Positions 1-3,483 of a stretch of 64,000 bases of DNA are shown in pieces. Numbering within the stretch: position 1 is the stretch's first letter; each line of letters opens with the position of its first letter. Below the pieces are notes generated by a model that worked only from the letters and a program-made list of their open reading frames with translations, was not told where the DNA came from and made no database searches. Made by a program: the position numbers and the translations under genes. The stretch is from an uncultured archaeon (GTDB taxonomy: Archaea; Thermoproteota; Nitrososphaeria; JACIWG01), in contig CALHLD010000005.1 in the NCBI GenBank assembly GCA_938034445.1, forward strand, positions 1 to 64,000. The letters are read 5' to 3'.

Positions 1-583
1 GCTTTTCCCTAATCTTCCAATAGTTTGTTATCTGTCCATTGTGTACGAGTGCTATGTCTGCATATTTTAGAGACTGAAATGGGTGTGCATGAAATATGTC
101 GACACAGCTTTCCGTAGAAAATCTTACATGTCCAAGTCCATGTGTTCCATACATTTCCGAAATCTTGAAGTTTTTTTCAAGTTCTTCAACAACTCCTGTA
201 TCCTTTATTATCTCCATTCTTCTACCTATACTTATAACCTTAGCTAAACCTGTCGAATTTACTTTTTCAACGATGTCCTCTAGCTTATCTTCTGATGTTC
301 TCACGATATAGTTGTCGAAACCGAACCCCCTTACTATATTAATTTTTATGCTTCTAATGTCTGCTCCAGCTTTTGCTAGGGCTGTCGAAACCTTACTTAA
401 AGCTCCAACAATGTCTTTTGTAAGAACTTTAACAATATATTCGTTTCCTTGAACATTTTCTCCACCATATATTGCTACTCCTGCAGAATCTTTTCCCCTA
501 TGCTGGAGTTTCTCCATCATGGCTATCAAATATTTTCCAATTGCTCCCTCTTTTTCAAAAAAAATGCAAGCTATGCCACAGAT
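1..583 (-). CDS. Class II glutamine amidotransferase (GlxB / glutamate synthase domain 1-like), C-terminus cut by window edge, ATC start proposed
   Basis: Minus-strand translation (I/M)CGIACIFFEKEGAIGKYLIAMMEKLQHRGKDSAGVAIYGGENVQG...GTHGLGHVRFSTES..HAHPFQSLKYADIALVHNGQITNYWKIRE; class II GATase motifs. Absent from ORF track because there is no ATG/GTG/TTG before the catalytic Cys. Confidence 0.85.
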   Translation of the reverse strand, partial: MCGIACIFFEKEGAIGKYLIAMMEKLQHRGKDSAGVAIYGGENVQGNEYIVKVLTKDIVGALSKVSTALAKAGADIRSIKINIVRGFGFDNYIVRTSEDKLEDIVEKVNSTGLAKVISIGRRMEIIKDTGVVEELEKNFKISEMYGTHGLGHVRFSTESCVDIFHAHPFQSLKYADIALVHNGQITNYWKIREK

Positions 584-601
584 ATGACTGTCACCTCTAC
601 C

Positions 602-1963
602 CTATAACCTTCTTATGTATCTTTCAATCTCCCAATCTGTAACCTGTGTTCTGTAAATGTCCCATTCCTTCCTTTTAATATGTAGATAGTTGTGAAAGAG
701 TGTTTCGCCTAAAGCCTTCTTCATAAACTCACTATTTTCCATTAAATCAAGTGCTTCCTTTAATGATTCCGGTAACGATATAATATTTCTTGCTTTTCTC
801 TCTTCATAGCTTAGCTTATATACGTTGAGTTCTGTAGGCTCCCCTGGATCTATTTTCCTCTTAATTCCCTCAAGTCCAGCTAAGCATAGGACTGCAAACT
901 GTAGATAGGGGTTTCCAGCCGGATCTGGGCACCTTATCTCGCATCTTGCAGCATTTTTTCTTCCACCAAAGTTTGGTACTCTGATAAGTGGTGACCTGTT
1001 CCTGAATGCCCACGCTACATAAACTGGAGCCTCGTATCCTGGAACAAGTCTCTTGTAAGAGTTCGGCCAAGATGCTAATACTGCGCACATTTCTCTTCCA
1101 AAGTAAAGTTGTCCTCCTATAAAGTATCGTGCTATCTCTGATAGGAAGTTTGTTGAAGGGTCCTCTGAATAGAATAGGTTTTCCGTTCTATCTATGTTCC
1201 ATAAACTTTGGTGTACGTGCATTCCTGAACCGTTGACACCGTAAAATGGTTTCGGCATGTATGTTGCTATATAACCGTTTTTTGCAGCAACAATCTTTGT
1301 AACCATCTTCATCGTTATAGTCCTGTCAGCGGTTTCAAGTGCTTCATCAAACCTAAAGTCTATCTCATTCTGTCCAAGTGCAACCTCATGATGCGCTATC
1401 TCTATTTCTATACCAAAACATTCTGCCATATCCGCTATTTCGCGTCTAATCCAGTCTGTTAGGTCACCTGGATGGTAGTCAAAGTATCCTGCCATATCAA
1501 TAGGCTTAGGCTTGCCCTCCTCATTCTCTTTTAATAGAAAGAATTCGAGTTCGGGTGCGCACACATACTTCATGCCACTTTCTTCACATTTTTTTAACGC
1601 TTTTTCTAAAACGTATCTTGGATCTCCTTCAAACCTTTTATCTTCTGGTGTGTAAACATCACAGATCATTCTTCCTGACGCTTTCTCCTGAGGTCTCCAC
1701 GGTATTTCTGAAAATGTTGACGGGTCTGGATAGAGTATCATATCAGATTCCTCTATTGGCCTGAACCCGGTTATTGAGGAGCCGTCAAATGATTGTCCAT
1801 TCTCAAATATACTTTCTATGTTTTTTGAGTGTACTTGAAGGCTCTTAAGTATTCCGTTTATGTCAGTAAATTGGAGTTTTATAAATTTGATATTTTTACC
1901 TTTTATCTCTTGCACAACCTTTGTAACATTTTCTTTCCATATAGCATCTTTAAAGTGACGCAT
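602..1963 (-). CDS. glnA: Glutamine synthetase
   Basis: Full-length ORF; motifs FDGSSITGF, CAPELEFFLL, NGSGMHVHQSLW, VPGYEAPVYVAWAFRNRSPLIRVP. Confidence 0.95.
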   Translation of the reverse strand: MRHFKDAIWKENVTKVVQEIKGKNIKFIKLQFTDINGILKSLQVHSKNIESIFENGQSFDGSSITGFRPIEESDMILYPDPSTFSEIPWRPQEKASGRMICDVYTPEDKRFEGDPRYVLEKALKKCEESGMKYVCAPELEFFLLKENEEGKPKPIDMAGYFDYHPGDLTDWIRREIADMAECFGIEIEIAHHEVALGQNEIDFRFDEALETADRTITMKMVTKIVAAKNGYIATYMPKPFYGVNGSGMHVHQSLWNIDRTENLFYSEDPSTNFLSEIARYFIGGQLYFGREMCAVLASWPNSYKRLVPGYEAPVYVAWAFRNRSPLIRVPNFGGRKNAARCEIRCPDPAGNPYLQFAVLCLAGLEGIKRKIDPGEPTELNVYKLSYEERKARNIISLPESLKEALDLMENSEFMKKALGETLFHNYLHIKRKEWDIYRTQVTDWEIERYIRRL

Positions 1964-2215: not shown

Positions 2216-3483
2216 GTGCTCTTTTTGTGGGTACTGGTAATGCGTGATAGTAAGGTAAAAAATAACTACTTTACCTATCCTGACAGGCGTCCCCCTAAGG
2301 TTCGTGATAGTGGTGAAATAGAAAAGGTTCTTAGTAGGTTTTCAGGCTTTCCATATGAGGTGGTAGCGAATATTTGTGGTGCAAAAATAATGCTTAAAAC
2401 GAATTCTTTACATGTTTACGAGTATTGGAAACTTAACTGGTTTCCAGCCTCTGAAAATGATGATGTTGACGGTATAATTTACGATTTAGTTGGTGTTGAA
2501 GGCTATGATCCGGTTATCTTATACAATTTCAGAAATCGTAGGTCTCTTATTTTGAATTGCGAATATTATGGTGCTGCAAAGTCGGCTGGCGCACTTGGTC
2601 TTGCAACTTATATTCTAGAGGCAGGGGTGGTTACGCTATACATGGTGCATGTGTAGCTGTACCCAATTCTTCAGGCTATTCTGGTGTTATTATTGTCGCG
2701 CCAACTGGAACAGGGAAGACTTCACAGTTTCATGAGCTTATATATAATGTTAAAAATGCTAAGGTCCATTCTGACGACTATGTTTTCGTATTTTTTGAGC
2801 CTGAACCTGTGGCATATGCTACTGAAAATTGGCTTTACATGCGTACTGAAATCGCTATAAACCATCCTACTTTTATTAAACTCTTTCATGATCTACCGTT
2901 AGAGAATGTTGTTACTGAAAAGGAAAAGTGTGCTCAAAGGTCTGATGACGTATCTAGGATGGGTGAATGTTATAGGGCTGTTTTATATGGTGAAAGAAAG
3001 TGTGTGTTTGACTTGGGCTGTGATCGTTGTTATTGGTCATATGCAAACTCTAGGGTTATGTTTCCAAGAGAAATGTTTCCTATGCTTTTAAAAGATTCTG
3101 AAGGCAATCTTGTCGAACGTCCTAAGGGAAAAGAGAATGTGATTAACAAGTGTAGTATTAAATATGTGCTTCTGCTTACTCGGGATGATTCATCTAAGCC
3201 AGTTAAGCTTTTGGATGTTGATGAAGCAGTCAACATTTTAAAGGAGGGTAAGTTTGTTATTAGACCTGGCTCAGGTCCTCCTGAAAGGTGGGGTCAATAT
3301 GGTTATGAACCCTTCTATAACCCATATCCTCCTGAACATAATTTGAAGGTTGAAGAAGAGTTCTTTAGATCCCTCTATAAGGCTGGTGTAAAATTTTATC
3401 TTCTAAACACTGGAACGTATGAAGGTAAAAAGATAACGATTCATCAAACACACATGTATATTAGACATATTGTCGAAGACTAA
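2216..3483 (+). pseudogene. HPr kinase/PEPCK-like P-loop protein split by a -1 frameshift (ORFs 2216..2656 and 2557..3483)
   Basis: ORF1 ...YGAAKSAGALGLATYILEAG continues after -1 shift at GGGG (2624-2627) as GGYAIHGACVAVPNSSGYSGVIIVAPTGTGKTSQ, a Walker A in HprK-like context. Confidence 0.65.

Follow-up and report, generated by a model that had tools for sequence, protein, structure and literature searches.

Near-cognate start codons are already known from infC, the gene for IF3 in E. coli and relatives, where an AUU start limits and autoregulates expression (references in PMC9845219). The gene described here, encoding an ACT-GATase, resembles infC in having a putative near-cognate start of the AUH type. 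The differences are substantial, since infC is bacterial, uses AUU and codes for a fidelity factor, whereas the ACT-GATase gene is archaeal, apparently uses AUC and codes for an amidotransferase for which no autoregulation has been shown. Class II glutamine amidotransferases (GATases) need a cysteine at position 1 after removal of the initiator methionine, and some of them, such as PurF and bacterial GltB, carry propeptides. ACT-GATase shares its Cys1 nucleophile and its fold with the class II, Ntn-type enzymes GlmS, PurF, AsnB and GltB, but differs from them by an ACT domain inserted after the QHRGxDS segment, by its inferred non-AUG start and by having no propeptide. As in the split glutamate synthases of archaea, the GATase and the GXGXG/ferredoxin/FMN portions are separate polypeptides; in contrast to these systems, the GATase gene of the family studied here lies directly after glnA and has the inferred AUC start. 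The literature searched, which excluded most subscription journals, contained no report of a conserved AUC start in an archaeal metabolic gene; searches on AUC start codons in archaea and on ACT-GATase glutamate synthases yielded nothing relevant.

The window, a 64 kb stretch of DNA (64,000 nucleotides), was taken from an assembly of 1.8 Mb in 56 contigs. Its first base is also the first base of contig C5, so that the GATase gene lacks its 3' end. Complete orthologues contain 302 residues counted from Cys1 and comprise GATase and ACT domains. Membership of the class II amidotransferases is supported by matches to Pfam GATase_6 and GATase_7 and by residues C1, G2 and I3, which are invariant in 23 aligned orthologues. 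The AlphaFold model of an orthologue has a mean pLDDT of 91, and the best Foldseek matches are the glutaminase domains of glutamate synthase (7mfm) and GlmS (1xff). In complete relatives, the gene located 3' of the GATase encodes a 709-residue protein with GXGXG, 4Fe-4S and Glu_synthase domains; this adjacency was read from those relatives, as the window contig ends before that gene. The end of the GATase gene overlaps the gltB-like start in all three complete family members. The gene order in the family is glnA - GATase - gltB, with glnA directly upstream, and adjacency of the GATase and synthase genes is also present in a Methanobrevibacter. The locus thus combines glutamine synthetase with a split glutamate synthase of archaeal type, whose ammonia-releasing subunit is the ACT-GATase. 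As a separate observation, the insertion of the ACT domain within the glutaminase domain, in the window and in orthologues, suggests amino-acid sensing by the ammonia-releasing subunit. Coordinates of the features are summarized in Table 1.

Table 1. Coordinates of features at the ACT-GATase locus (window positions), at the carA loci and downstream of gltB in relatives.
Feature	Location	Strand	Basis or remark
ACT-GATase gene (GATase subunit of split glutamate synthase)	window 2..583	-	Pfam GATase_6 and ACT; 3' end cut by contig end
ACT domain inserted in GATase, residues 48-109	window 254..439	-	Pfam PF01842, E = 3.9e-9; AlphaFold model of orthologue
TTG, first in-frame standard start	window 527..529	-	residue 18; mechanical ORF callers begin there, losing Cys1
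TGT, catalytic Cys1 of class II amidotransferase	window 578..580	-	C1-G2-I3 invariant in 23 aligned orthologues; fold match
ATC, inferred translation start	window 581..583	-	sequence; same codon in 7 other genomes
Shine-Dalgarno GAGGTGA, 7 nt 5' of ATC	window 591..597	-	perfect complement of 16S rRNA 3' end, GGATCACCTCC
TAG, glnA stop	window 602..604	-	in frame with GATase in window genome, apparently by chance; other in-frame stops in relatives
glnA, type I glutamine synthetase, upstream gene	window 602..1963	-	NCBIfam TIGR00653 above cut-off
carA, window genome	L287, contig C7, about 15.25 kb	-	no in-frame ATG/GTG/TTG before conserved N-terminus
carA, G003	L288		no in-frame ATG/GTG/TTG before conserved N-terminus
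carA, G004	L286, C10, about 323.9 kb	+	no in-frame ATG/GTG/TTG before conserved N-terminus
asparaginase/isoaspartyl-peptidase-like gene, G003	L032 473-1396	+	VHGGAG by eye
asparaginase/isoaspartyl-peptidase-like gene, G001	L033 4635-5558	+	VHGGAG by eye

Past the glnA stop TAG (604-602), the minus strand reads GGT AGA GGT GAC AGT CAT ATC TGT GGC ATA GCT TGC, so that, just as a sequence-only reading of this DNA had described, ATC stands immediately 5' of the TGT for the catalytic cysteine. The perfect Shine-Dalgarno (SD) sequence claimed in that reading 7 nt before ATC is also borne out, with GAGGTGA (597-591) complementary over all seven bases to the 3' end of this genome's 16S rRNA. No in-frame ATG, GTG or TTG lies between the glnA stop and the catalytic cysteine on the minus strand of the window, again in agreement with that reading. 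Initiation at the first standard start, the TTG at 529, would strip Cys1 plus 16 more residues. The second is an ATG at residue 21, which had correctly been said to delete the nucleophile and the N-terminal strand; a start at either codon would lose Cys1 and the first strand. The arrangement of SD, 7 nt and ATC occurs once in the 64 kb window against 0.10 occurrences expected, a count that is suggestive but, being only weakly improbable by itself, not decisive. The case for the ATC start therefore rests on its conservation in relatives and not on window statistics.

Orthologues were found in three of the four other genomes examined from the window's family, with protein identities of 83% (G003), 79% (G001) and 67% (G004, which belongs to another genus). 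The start codon in close relatives had been proposed as a check: all three orthologues have ATC directly before TGT or TGC, and ATG occurs at this codon only in more distant genomes, for example in G013 from another family. ATC is thus found in all four family members with the gene, across two genera. Codons -5 to -2 mostly differ among these members, whereas codon -1 is ATC in all of them, and codons 1-17 display the synonymous and amino-acid changes typical of coding sequence. The SD of G004 is weaker (GGAG or GAGG). The records of the family relatives (Nitrososphaeria archaeon SKW303, MAG-19 and DRTY6_bin.115) belong to different accession series.

A wider survey, in which GTDB genomes and the phylum were searched with a profile, recovered many orthologues. 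ATC is also found in family f78 of the same class (G657/L043 and G667/L045; JZ2_bin.220247 and DRTY6_bin.138) and in two Methanomethylicia of the Methanomethylicota (G209/L040 and G099/L041; JZ_65_OP_bin_38 and M_DeepCast_400m). In 39 representative orthologues, the codon before Cys1 is ATG in 23, ATC in eight, TTG in six and GTG in two; no other codon, including AUU, AUA, CUG and ACG, was found there among these 39. Relatives function with ATG, GTG or TTG, and AUC is thus not required. When ATC is mapped onto the protein tree, at least four changes of state are required even on well-supported branches, a result that allows either for several gains or for a smaller number combined with reversions. 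Every ATC carrier is a metagenome assembly. Two criteria for near-cognate initiation are fulfilled, namely a codon conserved among relatives at a suitable SD spacing and the lack of any in-frame AUG, GUG or UUG from the upstream stop to the conserved N-terminus, and the AUC start has apparently been kept through evolution and is not a sequencing slip. AUC initiation, one of three alternatives offered in the sequence-only reading, is supported by the presence of ATC at the same codon in seven other genomes.

A tRNA scan of 1.54 Mb of the window genome (about 0.25 Mb lay outside the scan) identified one initiator-type Met tRNA, with anticodon CAU, which we take to be the initiator from its A1:U72 pair and GC-rich anticodon stem, as judged by eye. 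The tRNA-Ile(GAU) looks like a normal elongator, and no initiator-type tRNA with an anticodon matching AUC was found in the 1.54 Mb scanned. The scan gave no sign of a special or reassigned initiator tRNA, the CAU tRNA being the only one of initiator type in that sequence.

Translation of the ACT-GATase gene very probably starts at ATC, a reading made from sequence without proteomics, Ribo-seq or transcript data. The strong SD would position the small ribosomal subunit at AUC, where the ordinary initiator tRNA (anticodon CAU) would pair with a third-position mismatch and insert methionine. Because cysteine follows the initiator, removal of this methionine is expected; methionine aminopeptidase would take it off and free Cys1 as the nucleophile. 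Since AUC is a weak start, its likely role would be to keep synthesis of the GATase subunit low relative to glutamine synthetase and, via the overlapping gltB start, the low level of synthesis may extend to the whole synthase. The position and conservation of ATC, the SD, the absence of another start, the standard initiator tRNA, the gene order and the overlap are direct observations. Mismatched reading and insertion of methionine, its removal and the lowered synthesis are inferred from established knowledge, the coupling to gltB is likewise an inference, and the regulatory role is inferred from codon strength and gene order. As a whole, a kept AUC start read by the standard CAU initiator, with methionine removal and a weak start that probably limits the subunit, is in our judgment the best explanation and is held with high confidence, and a selected regulatory or dosage role for AUC stands at about even chances. 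Initiation fidelity could modulate the ACT-GATase gene as IF3 does infC, a parallel that is untested; in Sulfolobus, aIF1 reportedly promotes the rejection of non-canonical start codons (PMC6237735).

The alternative that survives best accepts AUC initiation as real but regards the codon as a product of drift, neutral or slightly deleterious, that the strong SD makes tolerable and that has no regulatory function. The ATG and GTG relatives, which occur even within the same Methanomethylicia genus as ATC carriers, are consistent with drift. However, ATC is fixed in all four carriers of the window's family, over two genera and 67-83% identity, and every non-standard start is AUC instead of being spread over the near-cognate codons, although an AUC-specific role is not shown. 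Drift remains a serious possibility, somewhat short of an even chance.

In a further alternative, ribosomes would begin at an AUG or GUG in another frame close to the SD and reach the GATase frame by programmed frameshifting. Six of the eight ATC genomes do have an ATG, GTG or TTG that overlaps the SD region (-19 to -13). The open frames are nevertheless incompatible (mod 1 in G004 and L043; mod 2 in the window, G003, G001 and L045), the ATG frames of G003 and G001 stop before the cysteine, and neither L040 nor L041 offers an out-of-frame start that could be used. Because the frames differ, two of them close early and two genomes lack such a start, frameshifting cannot be general, and we consider it very unlikely.

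Another alternative of the earlier reading was readthrough of the TAG with propeptide cleavage; a variant considered with it has translation begin at an in-frame codon farther upstream, the propeptide being removed later as in PurF or bacterial GltB. In the window, the GATase does share its frame with the glnA stop, and a short propeptide, M-(R/K)-EK, precedes the cysteine of PurF in two ATC genomes. Against this, in-frame stops are found 3-14 codons upstream of Cys1 in the eight ATC genomes, variously TAG, TGA and TAA; the in-frame stop in G003, G001 and G004 is not that of glnA; and the codons between stop and cysteine are unconserved apart from ATC, this spacer consisting of GGA AGA ATC alone in G004 and AGG AAA ATC alone in L043. 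Since the upstream stops vary in kind and distance, readthrough cannot be general; the proposal is refuted by the relatives and is extremely improbable. The weakest alternative, a sequencing or assembly error in a true ATG, could be entertained for a single metagenome-assembled genome with the gene at a contig end and one base separating ATC from ATG, but is virtually ruled out, and the earlier suggestion of it overturned, by the same ATC in seven further genomes with diverged flanks, from other assemblies and samples.

A census of similar cases compared 381 kb of G004 with 1.54 Mb of the window genome and gave 236 filtered orthologue pairs; overlapping pairs were removed, the unfiltered hits being mostly antisense shadow ORFs. 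Six of the 236 pairs were flagged because, in both genomes, the alignment extended upstream of the first standard start. Of these, four were dismissed, with ordinary starts slightly downstream or an unconserved upstream alignment, which left the ACT-GATase gene and carA (carbamoyl-phosphate synthase small subunit). In three family members, carA has a conserved GGGAGAGGGTT(T/C)ACG and no standard start in frame, and its start in these genomes is probably the ACG after GGGAGAGGGTT(T/C). A conserved GAGGGTCACAAT(T/A), mostly without an in-frame standard start, characterizes carA in most of the relatives that are probably ammonia oxidisers (L289, L291, L294-L298, L300-L304, L306 and L308-L315, from related Nitrososphaeria). 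A stop directly precedes ATT ATT in L289 and AGG GTC ACA ATA in L314. From these sequences alone, a start at AUU or AUA is suggested for carA in these Nitrososphaeria; that the GAGGGTCACAAT relatives are ammonia oxidisers is inferred from their class and genome sizes and is probable.

In the window genome, GlmS has an ATG start, and AUG is therefore not generally replaced in this organism. Near-cognate starts are rare there; the two clear cases both encode glutamine amidotransferases, which may be chance given so small a number. It is conceivable, though improbable, that Nitrososphaeria and Methanomethylicia use near-cognate starts selectively for glutamine amidotransferases, with AUC in the gene for the glutamate synthase GATase and ACG, AUU or AUA in carA, and that these starts put the use of glutamine under a common translational control sensed via initiation fidelity.

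Cys1 chemistry makes the ACT-GATase gene a rare case in which a start is fixed by sequence alone. Gene callers limited to ATG, GTG and TTG lose its catalytic cysteine, and the same callers probably mis-start carA across ammonia-oxidising archaea. The ATC start also offers a natural test of near-cognate acceptance by the archaeal initiation factors aIF1 and aIF2.

Two minor features were noted in the surrounding sequence. An asparaginase/isoaspartyl-peptidase-like gene, recognized by eye from its VHGGAG motif, lies beyond gltB, on its downstream side, in two members of the family. On the plus strand of the window, between 2216 and 3483, ORFs 2216-2656 and 2557-3483 overlap in different frames, the second carrying GTGKT, and have the appearance of a single P-loop protein interrupted by a frameshift near 2630.
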